Source: Anaerolineaceae bacterium | GTDB taxonomy: Bacteria > Chloroflexota > Anaerolineae > Anaerolineales > Anaerolineaceae | Length of the DNA stretch: 10,487 nt | NCBI GenBank assembly: GCA_003158355.1 | Contig: PMIV01000247.1 | Span: 6,935 to 17,421, forward strand | Direction of reading: 5' to 3' | Part shown: one piece after another, positions 1-10,403 of the stretch | Layout of the letters: the number at the start of each line of letters is the position of its first letter | Numbering within the stretch: the first letter of the stretch is position 1 | The notes under the pieces: model-generated | What the model saw: only the letters and a program-made list of their open reading frames with translations | Database searches by the model: none | What the model was told of the DNA's origin: nothing | Program-made: the position numbers and the translations under genes

Positions 1-1098
1 CGGGGTGCTGCCATTGTGTTGAGCTCATTGGCGATAATTTCTTTGTTACTTTACTTGATACCATCCGCTTCGATTACGCTTTACCCGATAACAACTCAAA
101 AACAAATCACTCTCTCCATTTGGGCCTCCCCCCAGGTGCACGAGATCAATGTAAATGGGAATTTACCGGCAATACAAAAACAAATTGAAGTGAGTGCCCA
201 ATTACAGGGAAAAAGCAGCGGCAATGCCAACATTCCCAGCGATTTTGCCAAAGGCGAAGTAACTTTTACTAATTTAACAAATCAATCCATCGTTGTCCCC
301 ACAGGGACGGTGATCAGCACTATCAACGATCCTGTCATCCGATTTTCAACTTTATTAGAGGCCTTTGTTCCTGCGGGGAAGAACCCAATAGTTTCAATAG
401 ATGTGCAAGCAGAACAAGCCGGTTCCACAGGTAATTTAGAATCCGGGACTTTGGTGGTCATCGAAGGTTCTCTAGGAGAAAGTTTAACGGTGACAAATAA
501 TTTGCCAACCAGTGGTGGAACAGATCTTCAGGCACCTTCACCCACTAAACAGGATTATGCAAAGATAAATGATCAACTGAAGGCACAGCTTCGAAAGCAG
601 GCGATCAGTGAGATCGCGGTCTCAGATGAAAGATTGATCACGGAGTCTTTGGACTCAGGAAAAGTTGTCTCAGAAGTACGATCTCTGGAACCCGGCTTAC
701 CAGGTGAACAGTTCAATTTATCATTGACGGTTCGATTTACAGGTTTGGTTTATTCCGAAAATGATCTTGAATTACTAGCAGGTAAAGCCATGTCTGCTGG
801 TTTGATCAGTTCAAACGAAAGCAATTACAGTGGTGAGGTACAGCTTAAAGCAACAGATACTTCTGTTGAGATTTCGAGCGATGGGACAAAGTGGAAAGAA
901 ACCGCTATTGCTGATGTAGGTCCAATTATTGATGCAAATTACCTGGCCTCTTTAGTTTCCGGGAAGAAAATCTCTGAGGCTTCTCAGTTATTACAGGCGA
1001 AGGTACCTTCAAAAAGTACTCCAATCATTAATGTTTATCCATTTGGATGGATGCGGCTGCCTTGGGCCAGTTATCAGATTCAAATTCAGGCAAAATAA
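1..1098 (+). CDS. Baseplate-J/gp47-like membrane-anchored protein (5' partial)
   Basis: The frame is open to the window edge, so the true start lies upstream. A GTG at 16 falls just before a hydrophobic stretch and is unlikely to be the start. About 365 residues are visible. The first ~20 form one membrane helix ending in S-A-S-I-T-L-Y-P, so the rest probably lies outside the cytoplasm. A beta-rich part follows with baseplate-J-like features: T-N-L-T-N-Q followed by a V-P-x-G-T-V segment, then V-R-F-S-T, then V-P-A-G, and A-G-S-T-G-N-L-E-S-G-T. The C-terminal ~180 residues are less conserved and end in a P-W-A-S-Y-Q-I-type strand. The family name comes from phage baseplate proteins, but no phage structural gene is nearby, and I recall similar proteins beside ruvX and mltG in Anaerolineae. 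The cellular role is unknown; a surface or envelope function is an inference. Its TAA overlaps the ruvX ATG by one base. Confidence 0.72.
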   Translation, partial: RGAAIVLSSLAIISLLLYLIPSASITLYPITTQKQITLSIWASPQVHEINVNGNLPAIQKQIEVSAQLQGKSSGNANIPSDFAKGEVTFTNLTNQSIVVPTGTVISTINDPVIRFSTLLEAFVPAGKNPIVSIDVQAEQAGSTGNLESGTLVVIEGSLGESLTVTNNLPTSGGTDLQAPSPTKQDYAKINDQLKAQLRKQAISEIAVSDERLITESLDSGKVVSEVRSLEPGLPGEQFNLSLTVRFTGLVYSENDLELLAGKAMSAGLISSNESNYSGEVQLKATDTSVEISSDGTKWKETAIADVGPIIDANYLASLVSGKKISEASQLLQAKVPSKSTPIINVYPFGWMRLPWASYQIQIQAK

Positions 1099-5788: not shown

Positions 5789-7252
5789 TTACAAAATTGA
5801 GTTGTATAGCGAATAATATTTTGCAGCAGAATTTTGCCATGAAAAATCCTGGCTCATTCCGTTTTGTTGAATTTTCTGCCAAATTTCGGTTTGTTGAAAT
5901 ATCTTGATGGCAGATTCGATGGTTTGTGAAAATTGTAATCCGCTTGTGTTTTGGAACAAGAAGCCAGTAGCTAATTTTGGCTCACTTGAATAATCAACAA
6001 TTGTATCTACCAAACCACCGGTTGCTCGAGCCAATGGCACGCAGCCGTAGTGCATGGCTATCATTTGCGCAAGACCGCAAGGCTCATAACGAGAAGGCAT
6101 CAACAGCATGTCGGCACCTGCATATAATCGGTGAGATAGGGCTAAATCAAAGCGAAGCGCTGCTCGAATTTGATCTGGAAATTGACATTGCAAAGCTTGG
6201 ATCTGTGCTTCAAGTTCTGATAACCCTTTACCCAAAAATATTAATTGCCAATTCTTGTTTTGTAAATCCTGCAATGCCTCAATGACCAGATCAATCCCTT
6301 TTTGCTTGTCGAGACGACCAATAAACGTGAGTAATGGTTTGTTTGGATCTATCGATAGTGAAAATTCTTTTTGAAGAGCCAACTTGTTCTCAGCCCGAGC
6401 GGATAATTGGCCGGTCGAAAAGTTGGATTGAATAAATTGATCTTTTATCGGATTCCAAACATTGAAATCGATACCGTTTATGACGCCTGTAATTTTTTTC
6501 TTTTTGGTTTGTAAAAAAGATTGCAGATCACATCCAAAATCACTGGTCAATATCTCATTGGCGTACGTGGGAGAAACTGCAACAATTTTATCAGCAGCAT
6601 TCATTCCCATTGGCAAGGGCAATGTACGAGACCAGGGGGGCATCCGGGGATTTTTGGCAGGGGTGATAAGAAACTTTTTCAGAGCGTTTTGGGAACCCGC
6701 TCCCATAAACGGTAAATTATGTATGGTAAGTAGTGATCTTACATACGACAGTTCAGGAATTTCTTTTTTTCTGGCTACTAATTCATATATAGAAATGGCA
6801 GTATGCCAATCATTGGCATGGAGAATATCGATCTGCCAATGAAGGTGCATCGGAAGATACAGGCACGCCAGGGAAAAAAAGACGAATTTTTCTGCGTCCA
6901 TTTCAAAGTCAGTGCCATAGACCTCTTTATTTGCCGCAATCGGTTTACCGTCAATTAAATAGACTGGCAAATCACCCAGTCTCGTTTCAAAGATATCCGC
7001 CTGAACATCACCAATTGTTGAAGGGATTGAAAAGCTGGTCACAAGATCAGCCTGAACATTAGACCTATGGATCACTTCATAAAACGGAATTGCCAAACGA
7101 ATATCCAGAGAAGGAACGAACTTTTTCAAAGCAATAGGCAAGGATCCGGCTACATCACCCAATCCGCCAACTTTGATAAAGGGATCTGCCTCTGCGGCGA
7201 TAAAAAGAACGTTTAGAGGTCTATTGGAACAAACTGATTTTTTACTTTTCAA
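5789..7252 (-). CDS. glgA: Glycogen (starch) synthase, GT5
   Basis: A 487-residue cytoplasmic glycosyltransferase that extends alpha-1,4-glucan using ADP-glucose (EC 2.4.1.21). The GT-B fold is complete. The N-terminal half begins around residue 14 and has K-V-G-G-L-G-D-V (27-34, the ADP-glucose K-x-G-G-L loop), H-A-N-D-W-H (145-150), T-I-H-N-L (176-180) and A-V-S-P-T-Y-A (225-231). The C-terminal half has N-G-I-D-F-N-V-W-N-P (259-268), G-R-L-D-K-Q-K-G with Arg313 and Lys318, and S-R-Y-E-P-C-G-L with Glu390, followed by T-G-G-L-V-D-T (411-417). The start is TTG 7252: no ATG occurs before residue 118, AAAGG lies five bases upstream, and this choice leaves 8 bp after the preceding stop. Third gene of the four-gene operon, just before malQ. 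ADP-glucose pyrophosphorylase and branching enzyme are not in the window. Confidence 0.95.
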   Translation of the reverse strand: MKSKKSVCSNRPLNVLFIAAEADPFIKVGGLGDVAGSLPIALKKFVPSLDIRLAIPFYEVIHRSNVQADLVTSFSIPSTIGDVQADIFETRLGDLPVYLIDGKPIAANKEVYGTDFEMDAEKFVFFSLACLYLPMHLHWQIDILHANDWHTAISIYELVARKKEIPELSYVRSLLTIHNLPFMGAGSQNALKKFLITPAKNPRMPPWSRTLPLPMGMNAADKIVAVSPTYANEILTSDFGCDLQSFLQTKKKKITGVINGIDFNVWNPIKDQFIQSNFSTGQLSARAENKLALQKEFSLSIDPNKPLLTFIGRLDKQKGIDLVIEALQDLQNKNWQLIFLGKGLSELEAQIQALQCQFPDQIRAALRFDLALSHRLYAGADMLLMPSRYEPCGLAQMIAMHYGCVPLARATGGLVDTIVDYSSEPKLATGFLFQNTSGLQFSQTIESAIKIFQQTEIWQKIQQNGMSQDFSWQNSAAKYYSLYNSIL

Positions 7253-7257
7253 GTTTG

Positions 7258-7262
7258 CCTTT
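7258..7262 (-). promoter_or_regulatory. Ribosome binding site of glgA, overlapping the preceding stop codon
   Basis: AAAGG on the - strand, five bases before the TTG start at 7252. It begins inside the TAA stop (7263-7261) of the amidohydrolase-CYTH gene, so ribosomes finishing that gene can reinitiate here. Confidence 0.65.
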
Positions 7263-9231
7263 AATGTACCATCTCAATATAGTCTTCAGTGGTTGTTTCT
7301 TCGATATCAGCGCCTAATGCCTGAATCAGGCGTGTGATCAAATTTGCTTTGTTTTCGGCATCCTGGCGGCTCCAGGTTCGGCTCTTCACTTCAAGGAAAT
7401 ATCCGATCTTGGGTACAACGATCTCATCCAAATTTATAAAGAATTCGGTATTTTCGTATTTTACCAAGAAACGGCGTCTATCTTTTTCAATTTCTTTTTC
7501 TGTATGCGGCTTAAAGTATTCTCGATAGAAACGCAGTGTTTGTGAAGCTGGGGCCAGATAACGGCTGCGGGAAAGCAATACTTCATTACCAAAGTGCCCT
7601 TCATTGGTTGGGCCAATTAAAGTTAATCGGGAACGTACATTCTCGACTTTACCAAGATCGTCAATGAAATCATCTTCGCGGTAACGGATCATCCCCTGAT
7701 CGACATCAGCAAAGAAGAAATAATCATCATATTCTTTGAAGTGGCGCTTGCGAATGATCTCGATTTCTGGGGAATGCAGTTTCTGCAAAATGGAATCCAG
7801 ATCTTTAACGCGTACTTTTGCCTGGATCTCGAAGCTTTCCTCTTCGGCTGCGCCGCCAATAGCAATCAGTTTTGAGAGAATGGACGTTTCGCGTTTCATC
7901 AGGAATGTGTCAATCTTTTTGGCATAAAACTGGCTGGCGATGATCAATTCTTTCTCGTCCAAAGTGAGTAATTGATGACTGCGCATCAACCATTGACCGT
8001 TTACCATCACGTCGCTGATATCTGATGCTTTGGAAGCGTAAACCACCTGTGCATAGGTTCCCTGGGGGTCATGTTCAAAATGCGGGGAGTTGTGTAATTG
8101 ATCAATATCCAATAAGACCAGATCAGCCCGTTTACCTGGTTCAAGTGAACCTGTAATATCTCCAATATGCAGGGCATTTGCGCCCATGCGGGTAGCCATA
8201 AGTAATGTCTGATTGGCTGGCAAAATTGTTGGATCACCACTGAAACCCTTTTGAAGGAAGGAAGCCAGTCGCATCTCTTCAAACATATCCAGATCGTTGT
8301 TCGAGGCAGGGCCATCGGTACCAATTCCGACGTTCAATCCCAACTCAAGCATTTTCTTGACCGGGGCGACACCTGATGCCAGTTTCAGGTTGGAGGAGGG
8401 ATTATGGGAAACCCCTGCATTGTAATGCTTAAGGGTATGAATTTCACCTTCATCAATATGCACGCAATGAGCTGCAATTACCTTGGCATCAAATAACCCT
8501 TGCTTCTTTACATAGGGAACGACAGGCATACCCTGTTCACGACGCATATTTTCCACTTCAGAAGCGGTCTCAGAAATGTGAATATGCAGCGGAACATCAA
8601 ATTCAATTGCAAGTGCTGCCGAAGCCTGTAAAATTTCTGGTGTGCAGGTATAAGGTGCATGGGGGGCTACCGCCGGAACAATTAATTCATGGTTCTTCCA
8701 TCTTTTTATATAATCCCTGGACATAGCGAGGGATTCTTCAAAGAATTTGGCATCTGGCGTGGGGTATTTCATTACTGACTGCCCGCAAACAGCGCGCATA
8801 CCAACACTGGCTGTTGCGCGGGCAATGTCTTCTTCAAAATAGTACATATCATTAAAAGTGGTAATACCTGAACGGATCATTTCTGCGCAGGCCAGTTTTG
8901 TGCCTAACTGTACAAAATCTGGCGATACGAATTCTCTTTCAACTGGCATCATATAACCCATCAGCCAGACATCCAAGCGCAGATCATCTGCAAGACCGCG
9001 CAGAAGAGTCATTGGCACGTGTGTATGGGCGTTAATCAGACCTGGCATCAATATCTTCATGCCGCAGTCAATGGTCTGAGATGCTTCATATTCTTTCAAA
9101 ACCCGTTCCTGATCTCCGACGGCAGCAATACTGTTGCCTATAATTGCAACAGCCCCTGATTTGTACTGATGAAAATCTTCATCCATGGTCAAGACATTGG
9201 CGTTGATTAAAAGAATATCGACTTTTTTCAT
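7261..9231 (-). CDS. MTA/SAH deaminase-like amidohydrolase fused to a C-terminal CYTH domain
   Basis: A 656-residue two-part protein; ordinary MtaD-type deaminases have about 400-440 residues. Residues 1-~440 form a metal-dependent amidohydrolase close to 5'-methylthioadenosine/S-adenosylhomocysteine deaminase (EC 3.5.4.28/31), which converts the adenine ring to hypoxanthine. Metal ligands and catalytic residues are present: His69 and His71 (N-A-H-T-H), His218 and Glu221 (H-I-S-E-T), His255 (A-A-H-C-V-H), Asp306 (G-T-D-G). S-H-N-P-S-S-N-L-K-L (275-284) and L-L-R-G-L-A (76-81) are also typical. After a helical linker, residues ~462-656 resemble a CYTH domain: E-I-Q-A-K (468-472), I-R-Y-R-E-D (515-520), R-L-T-L-I-G-P (535-541), L-D-E-I-V (601-605), F-L-E-V-K-S (612-617) and a closing helix with L-I-Q-A-L-G. 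ATG 9231 has AAAGGG five bases upstream. Second gene of the operon, 14 bp after cinA. The deaminase class is firm; exact substrate and CYTH role are open. Confidence 0.88.
   Translation of the reverse strand: MKKVDILLINANVLTMDEDFHQYKSGAVAIIGNSIAAVGDQERVLKEYEASQTIDCGMKILMPGLINAHTHVPMTLLRGLADDLRLDVWLMGYMMPVEREFVSPDFVQLGTKLACAEMIRSGITTFNDMYYFEEDIARATASVGMRAVCGQSVMKYPTPDAKFFEESLAMSRDYIKRWKNHELIVPAVAPHAPYTCTPEILQASAALAIEFDVPLHIHISETASEVENMRREQGMPVVPYVKKQGLFDAKVIAAHCVHIDEGEIHTLKHYNAGVSHNPSSNLKLASGVAPVKKMLELGLNVGIGTDGPASNNDLDMFEEMRLASFLQKGFSGDPTILPANQTLLMATRMGANALHIGDITGSLEPGKRADLVLLDIDQLHNSPHFEHDPQGTYAQVVYASKASDISDVMVNGQWLMRSHQLLTLDEKELIIASQFYAKKIDTFLMKRETSILSKLIAIGGAAEEESFEIQAKVRVKDLDSILQKLHSPEIEIIRKRHFKEYDDYFFFADVDQGMIRYREDDFIDDLGKVENVRSRLTLIGPTNEGHFGNEVLLSRSRYLAPASQTLRFYREYFKPHTEKEIEKDRRRFLVKYENTEFFINLDEIVVPKIGYFLEVKSRTWSRQDAENKANLITRLIQALGADIEETTTEDYIEMVH
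7264..7848 (-). other. CYTH (triphosphate tunnel) domain of the fusion protein
   Basis: Codons ~462-656. CYTH domains bind or hydrolyse triphosphates (thiamine triphosphatase, inorganic triphosphatase, class IV adenylyl cyclase). The strand order and spacing fit: E-x-[E/Q]-x-K, a Y-D-D-Y-F-F-F strand, R-Y-R, L-T-x-x-G-P, K-D-R-R-R, L-D-E, L-E-V. Several usual catalytic positions differ: the second Glu of E-x-E-x-K is Gln470, the Lys of L-T-x-K-G-P is Ile539, and E-x-E near the end reads E614-V-K616. No frame break separates it from the deaminase part. Confidence 0.75.
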
Positions 9232-9245: not shown

Positions 9246-10388
9246 TTATTCCAGAATAATTAAGGTTTGACGTAAAGTTTCTAAGAAGATATTGACTGCC
9301 CAGGTTGGGCCCTGAGCACTGGGTCCATTATACAAATTTGAAAAATGCTGACTTTTCTCTTTAGTGATCAGATTAAACTCCATCTTACTCTCACCATCCA
9401 ATTGTGCAAAACTACAATCAGCTTGAAGAGGAGCAGAACAATTGTGATCGTACTTGATCTGTAATGGATTGTGTGGTTGAATCAGTTTTTGAAGTAGAAG
9501 AGTATTTTGGAAACTAGCAAATAAATCTGGTGGCCAATTTTCATCCAACCCAAAACAGGTAATTGAGATTGTTGAAGATTTTGATTTAGCCAGATTAATT
9601 ACCGAATTTAAAAGGGTGTCACTATCGTAGCCAAATATCTTGTTTGGAAATGCTGTAATAATTTGTTTTTCAATTTCTGCGATCATCAAATCAGCTGCGC
9701 TGATCGAATCGGCTTTGGCAGTAATACGTACATCCACAATACCAGGGTGCGCCAGAAGCCCTACAGTTGGATTTGAGAGCTTTTCAAGATCACCAATAGC
9801 TGCATCAACAACGCTCTCACCAATCCCGGCTAAATGGATCACCCGAGGTTTAATGATGCCTTGCAGTTGATATAATTGCTTTAGTAAAGGAAGAACAGCA
9901 ATTTCGGTGAGAGTTTCCATTTCCTTGGGAACCCCCGGCAGGCAAATTATGATCTTGTTACCTTTTTGCATATAAAAGGCAGGTGCTGTTCCTACCGGGT
10001 TATGGATCACTTCGGCTCCGATAGGGAGAAATGCCTGACGACGATTATTTTCGGTTGGAATCATACCACGTCGTAAGAATCTCTGCTCAATTTCTTGCCA
10101 GAGTTCCGGATGAAACTCCGTCTTCGTATCAAAGGCTAATGCCATTGCATCACGGGTTGGGTCATCCACGGTGGGTCCCAAGCCGCCGGTGGTGATGATG
10201 ATATCCGACCTATTCAATGCTTCTTTCACCAAGTCGGCGATACGAACAGCGTTGTCTCCGATCATGGTGATTCGGAAGAGGTCAATATTGATGTCTTTAA
10301 TAATTTTTGCAAGATGACGGGTATTTGTATCTTGAATTTCTCCAAGTAATAACTCAGTACCAATAGTAATTAATTCGGCAGACGGCAT
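9246..10388 (-). CDS. CinA-like protein: intact MoCF/COG1058 domain, unrecognisable C-terminal domain
   Basis: A 380-residue protein; typical CinA has about 410-420. Residues 1-~170 are the MoCF-type fold: I-G-T-E-L-L-L-G-E (9-17), T-T-G-G-L-G-P-T (66-73) with D-D-P-T-R-D-A (75-81), N-P-V-G-T-A-P-A-F (130-138) and L-P-G-V-P-K-E-M (150-157). Residues ~180-250 match the connecting domain (G-I-G-E-S, V-G-L-L-A-H, V-D-V-R-I-T-A). COG1058 domains have reported ADP-ribose pyrophosphatase activity; full CinA adds a PncC NMN-deamidase domain (EC 3.5.1.42). From ~255 on, the PncC hallmark E-S-C-T-G-G and the T-G-I-A-G-P segment are missing, although the frame is open and the length close to a small PncC domain. 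I chose ATG 10388, with GGAG four bases upstream; an in-frame TTG at 10403 would add five residues. First gene of the operon. Confidence 0.85.
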   Translation of the reverse strand: MPSAELITIGTELLLGEIQDTNTRHLAKIIKDINIDLFRITMIGDNAVRIADLVKEALNRSDIIITTGGLGPTVDDPTRDAMALAFDTKTEFHPELWQEIEQRFLRRGMIPTENNRRQAFLPIGAEVIHNPVGTAPAFYMQKGNKIIICLPGVPKEMETLTEIAVLPLLKQLYQLQGIIKPRVIHLAGIGESVVDAAIGDLEKLSNPTVGLLAHPGIVDVRITAKADSISAADLMIAEIEKQIITAFPNKIFGYDSDTLLNSVINLAKSKSSTISITCFGLDENWPPDLFASFQNTLLLQKLIQPHNPLQIKYDHNCSAPLQADCSFAQLDGESKMEFNLITKEKSQHFSNLYNGPSAQGPTWAVNIFLETLRQTLIILE

Positions 10389-10392
10389 TTTT

Positions 10393-10396
10393 CTCC
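10393..10396 (-). promoter_or_regulatory. Ribosome binding site of the cinA-like gene
   Basis: GGAG on the - strand, four bases before ATG 10388. It favours this ATG over the TTG at 10403, which has no such site. Confidence 0.55.
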
Positions 10397-10403
10397 ATGA
10401 CAA

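Follow-up and report, generated by a model that had tools for sequence, protein, structure and literature searches.

A conserved fusion of an MTA/SAH-type deaminase with a predicted CYTH-fold tunnel of altered charge in Anaerolineae

One gene in a window of 10,487 nucleotides (the whole stretch of DNA analysed here, from an Anaerolineaceae bacterium) raises the question of what a triphosphate tunnel might do at the end of a purine-nucleoside deaminase. The first-pass annotation had proposed that both parts lie in one protein, and indeed a single uninterrupted frame was found, with an identical deaminase-CYTH layout in 80/80 loci (the best 80 of 290 relatives in a genome-wide scan). Coordinates are given in Table 1. 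Among 50 diverse aligned sequences the linker residues F443, E448 and K454 are invariant, although the linker overall is not the more conserved part (mean entropy 1.14 vs 1.15 for the deaminase). Judged by sequence and fold modelling, the protein consists of two halves: a deaminase of the MTA/SAH type whose metal site is complete and, behind a conserved linker, a predicted CYTH-fold tunnel. In automatic annotation it appears as a plain deaminase or amidohydrolase; in the precomputed Pfam annotation of the best 120 matches, the CYTH part carries no mark.

Table 1. Features of the fusion gene and its direct neighbours (positions in the window).
Feature	Position	Strand	Remarks
CinA-like gene, upstream, 14 bases from fusion	9246..10403	(-)	neighbour only
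Whole fusion gene	7261..9231	(-)	single ATG-to-stop frame, 656 codons + stop
MTA/SAH-type amidohydrolase deaminase, residues 1-442	7906..9231	(-)	
H69-x-H71, metal ligands	9019..9027	(-)	50/50 rows
H218 to E221	8569..8580	(-)	50/50 rows each
H255, metal ligand	8467..8469	(-)	50/50 rows
D306, metal ligand	8314..8316	(-)	50/50 rows
Helical linker, residues 443-461	7849..7905	(-)	
Predicted CYTH / triphosphate-tunnel domain, residues 462-656	7264..7848	(-)	
E468-x-Q470-x-K472, changed ExExK (second Glu to Gln)	7816..7830	(-)	50/50 rows
D502-x-Y504, DxY motif	7720..7728	(-)	50/50 rows
R516-x-R518, predicted triphosphate-binding arginines	7678..7686	(-)	50/50; role from PMC8233210
R557 replacing strand-5 acidic-patch Glu	7561..7563	(-)	50/50; position from hhalign alignment
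K583-x-R585-x-R587, basic strand	7471..7485	(-)	50/50 rows
E614-x-K616, changed ExE (second-metal Glu to Lys)	7384..7392	(-)	50/50 rows
Glycogen synthase gene, downstream, 8 bases from fusion	5789-7252	(-)	

An alignment search with the C-terminal part matched 89 of 400 genomes of the phylum. According to a kinship-ordered listing, from which the class split was read, 50/55 genomes of the window's class have a match (those without are G176, G088, G128, G208 and G276), compared with 39/345 genomes outside it, in families f25, f35, f61, f64 and f82, which are probably the class Chloroflexia and its kin. The match places sit in frames of at least 656 aa in 88/90 cases, and the remaining two, which are shorter, stop at contig ends; when 20 fused genomes were compared, 18 aligned with the window's protein starting at residue 1-4 and reaching at least residue 640, and two were cut. 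Therefore, the pairing is no assembly artefact, contrary to the sequencing-error junction that had been considered for this gene. When 50 fused and 23 unfused deaminases were placed in one tree, all fused proteins grouped in a single clade (100/100), which takes one change of state. Six short-match rows of the 29 considered (L117, L132, L142, L143, L144 and L147) were left out of this tree, and L118 was not considered. The fusion thus appears to have arisen once within the sample of the tree, in which the unfused rows are all from the window's phylum and several sit on long branches, and fusions may exist beyond the relatives covered. Two loci labelled Candidatus Riflebacteria (L077 and L080) carry the fusion and were placed among Anaerolineae rows, reflecting either gene transfer or mis-binned contigs.

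The deaminase half has the full HxH, H, E, H, D site of MTA/SAH-type deaminases in 50/50 aligned sequences, in which we take H218 to be a metal ligand and E221 the catalytic glutamate. Over residues 1-442 it shares the fold, the metal ligands and 33-39% identity with the MTA/adenosine deaminases of P. aeruginosa (4dyk/4gbd), X. campestris (4dzh), C. violaceum (4f0r) and T. maritima (TM0936, 1p1m), and together with the complete metal site this upholds the initial enzyme assignment. The first-pass annotation placed the end of known enzymes of this type near residue 440, which agrees with the aligned chains: they are single-domain, comprise 404-441 residues and stop near residue 442, whereas the fusion continues. 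Each of the 25 matches listed for the fusion protein among the curated NCBIfam equivalogs was under its cut-off (best 455.3 vs 540). We predict that the deaminase half acts on a 5'-substituted adenosine, namely 5'-deoxyadenosine, MTA or SAH. A candidate substrate is the 5'-deoxyadenosine from radical SAM enzymes; a methanogen 5'-deoxyadenosine deaminase is mentioned in the accessible part of PMC6302742. The window's genome also encodes an unfused deaminase paralogue of 453 aa, 37% identical to the fusion (L113, G000:C106:6195-7478), on a contig that bears two additional amidohydrolases.

A role of the fusion as a stand-in for a missing SAH or MTA enzyme was considered and rejected. The window's genome has two PF00962 adenosine deaminase matches and PF01048 nucleoside phosphorylases, one of them with a TDYD motif, which presumably marks MTA phosphorylases. 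Its adenosylhomocysteinase, over the NCBIfam cut-off, shows the HxTxE motif that the available part of PMC10978960 ties to SAH preference; thus, the S-inosylhomocysteine route, in which SAH is deaminated and then hydrolysed, is not indicated. Since an SAH hydrolase, phosphorylases and adenosine deaminase members are present in the host, the fusion is no substitute for an absent step. Class-wide, PF05221 was detected in 57/60, PF01048 in 59/60 and PF00962 in 18/41 genomes.

The eight-stranded beta tunnel that characterises the CYTH/TTM fold superfamily was recovered in the C-terminal part of the fusion, and hhalign against CYTH gave 97-98%, in support of the CYTH claim. The suggested search with PF01928 had a split outcome: at family level the domain was found in 14/52 relatives (E<=1) and at the place of the fusion in 6/12 fusion-bearing genomes (4 above cut-off), but a Pfam search did not find it in the window's own protein. 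Compared with the PDB, the C-terminal part gave zero matches at E<=1 by profile and three chance matches by single sequence, neither of which excludes anything. The ThTPase motif W/Y-x-R-x-R is not matched in the window's protein, which has Met at 514 (Arg 30, Tyr 5 and Trp 2 across the 50 sequences), nor is the HFxxxxExExK of class IV adenylyl cyclases, where the window has A462/E463 and Phe at 463 occurs in 0/50. By sequence, membership of the VTC family was rejected, as PF09359 is not among the Pfam matches and hhalign against six VTC proteins of the phylum gave 0.2%.

How the tunnel might work can be read against characterised relatives. The available part of PMC8233210 describes for SaTTM that metal 1 is bound by E7 and E135 and metal 2 by E5, E7 and E137, that R56, R58, K69, K110 and R112 grip the phosphate, that D38 and Y40 position a water, and that Y168 lies on the plug helix; it gives ExExK and ExE as the motifs for TTM/ThTPase function. 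In AtTTM3, the acidic patch of Glu-2, Glu-4, Glu-90 and Glu-171 makes up metal site 2, where the water for the attack is activated (PMC4641920, accessible part). Equivalences between the fusion and these enzymes, set by the hhalign alignment and the order of motifs, place the patch at E468, Q470, R557 and K616, metal 1 at E614, and the counterparts of D38/Y40, R56/R58 and K110/R112 at D502/Y504, R516/R518 and K583/R585. Y651 aligns with the plug tyrosine and is invariant in the 50 sequences. Compared with the SaTTM-type triphosphatases (7ns9 of Sulfolobus acidocaldarius; PH1819, 2een), however, the fusion has Gln for the second Glu of ExExK, Arg for the strand-5 Glu and Lys for the second Glu of ExE, and the tunnel Lys-69 is not retained, position 539 being Ile, Thr, Leu, Val or Met. 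Of the acidic patch, E468 alone stays; the other three of its four residues are gone in every aligned relative. In a wider but biased set of 321 (241 proteins and 80 loci, mostly close kin and with the window itself twice), Q470, R557 and K616 were 321/321, 14 checked positions were likewise 321/321, and Y651 was present in 316.

Thirty-two aligned pieces of ordinary CYTH proteins from the phylum served as a control. They have Glu at the second ExExK place in 29/29, Glu (25) or Asp (2) at the strand-5 place of 30, and Glu at the second ExE place in 11/11, strand 8 being aligned in 11 only. Because these controls keep the glutamates, the change of the acidic patch is specific to the fusion. Invariant positions accounted for 15/48 tunnel-facing and 2/47 outward strand positions (Fisher p 0.0009; entropy p 0.027) when the inward/outward parity was anchored on known motifs; without such an anchor, a test for alternation in entropy showed no excess (3695/5000 shuffles as high). 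The alignments and the modelled fold show a CYTH-fold tunnel in which Gln/Arg/Lys take the place of the second-metal patch; the first-metal Glu E614, the DxY pair, the plug tyrosine and, apart from one Lys, the basic lining are kept. On this reading, the tunnel has retained most of its phosphate-chain grip and lost the cutting residues. Since three patch residues are lost, the tunnel is unlikely to hydrolyse triphosphate or ThTP by the two-metal mechanism known from its relatives.

The pairing itself had been noted as unfamiliar, and this impression is borne out: among the open-access papers listed, there is no report of a CYTH/tunnel domain paired with an amidohydrolase or deaminase, and a purine-nucleoside deaminase is outside the list of CYTH multidomain pairings in the available part of PMC8233210. 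In CYTH-CHAD proteins (YgiF) the tunnel is also joined to another domain, but the partner differs, and CYTH domains combined with an HD hydrolase, exopolyphosphatase or nucleotidyl kinase resemble the fusion in that a tunnel is joined to an enzyme. The plant kinase-TTM proteins TTM1/2 (7z67) are, like the fusion, without ExExK and ExE (PMC8233210, accessible part).

The surroundings of the gene differ among loci. Glycogen synthase lies downstream of the fusion in 32/97 loci. Near two distant loci, genes over cut-off encode an MTA phosphorylase (L157) and a purine-nucleoside phosphorylase (L156), which fits nucleoside salvage. The CinA-like protein of the window (9246-10403, (-)) has MoCF and CinA_KH domains; its last 104 residues (9246-9560) have zero Pfam matches at E<=0.1, and a CinA amidase domain is not listed. 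Elsewhere in the window, a frame at 16-1098 (+) has a weak Baseplate_J match (E 8e-9) and adjoins ruvX and mltG.

Several functions of the tunnel have to be weighed. In a bifunctional two-step enzyme, the CYTH part would hydrolyse PPPi, ATP or ThTP and the deaminase would take a related adenine product. SAM synthesis leaves PPPi, and MTA and 5'-deoxyadenosine likewise arise from SAM metabolism; the CYTH fold and the basic tunnel are also retained. However, the motifs for TTM/ThTPase function read ExQxK and ExK in 50/50 sequences, and mutating the metal glutamates impairs the activity of AtTTM3 and ygiF (accessible part of PMC4641920). The loss of three patch residues in every aligned relative weakens this idea, which the first-pass annotation had put forward, and we regard it as improbable. 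A dead structural module for oligomerisation or stability would be compatible with a missing catalytic patch, and Mediator subunits such as Med18/Med20 have the fold without activity (same source, available part). Yet no part of the domain is more fixed than its inward-facing charges (50/50 in diverse sequences), unlike in a mere scaffold, and we consider such a module unlikely.

A polyphosphate-binding or VTC4-like phosphotransfer tunnel, with one metal and the phosphate chain along a basic patch, is suggested by yeast Vtc4p (VTC polymerase; 3g3r, PF09359), which has basic residues at the four patch glutamates of AtTTM3 and metal site 1 only (PMC4641920, accessible part). At these four places the fusion has two basic residues (R557, K616) and one neutral (Q470), and it shares the strand-8 E-x-K with the VTC family, in which it occurs in 8/8 matches of the phylum (L203-L210; VTC-domain genes were found in 7/101 Chloroflexota genomes searched). 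On the other hand, the Glu at E468 is kept, and the hhalign values given above are for CYTH and against VTC. The PPK1 family, on which the comparison of polyphosphate synthesis rests, is present in 13/41 genomes of the class and was not found in the window's 84%-complete genome; polyphosphate synthesis therefore does not track the fusion, and a VTC4-like tunnel is no more probable than the two-step enzyme. Alternatively, the tunnel might bind another anionic partner, i.e. a CoA or NAD precursor, an RNA end or a protein. A same-strand CinA-like gene directly upstream in 74/97 loci (0/16 of the more distant loci) and a dephospho-CoA kinase (CoaE) gene, over cut-off, adjoining the fusion in L153 would point in this direction, but because neighbours vary by group, there is no one partner pathway that goes with the fusion, and we consider such a partner improbable.

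We favour a sensor or phosphate-regulated deaminase. More precisely, and with a probability of roughly 45%, the fusion is a two-domain salvage enzyme, in which a non-hydrolysing, triphosphate-binding tunnel tunes the activity of the deaminase. The tunnel, holding one metal at most, would bind but not hydrolyse a ligand that bears a triphosphate (an NTP, tripolyphosphate or some other polyanion), ligand binding would be relayed via the linker to raise or lower deaminase activity, and the breakdown of adenine nucleosides might thereby track the energy or phosphate state of the cell. As the putative ligand, ATP, PPPi or a similarly common triphosphate is favoured over polyphosphate, because the sequence places the fusion with CYTH rather than VTC and PPK1 does not track it. 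So conserved a tunnel could alternatively be an active site for another reaction. It is tempting to speculate that the charge-altered, non-hydrolysing CYTH tunnel is a built-in ATP/PPPi gauge for a deaminase of SAM by-products in the class and a second family group, although this more specific proposal is tentative and rather doubtful.

If the tunnel binds without cutting, it would represent a well-studied active site in a naturally non-catalytic form and would offer a route for nucleoside breakdown to follow the ATP, PPPi or phosphate state. A predicted binder that is set apart from known triphosphatases by one residue (K616 or Q470) would also provide a clean mutational contrast. In summary, if the proposed ATP/PPPi gauge is real, the tunnel fold would serve as an allosteric sensor within the core metabolism of bacteria.
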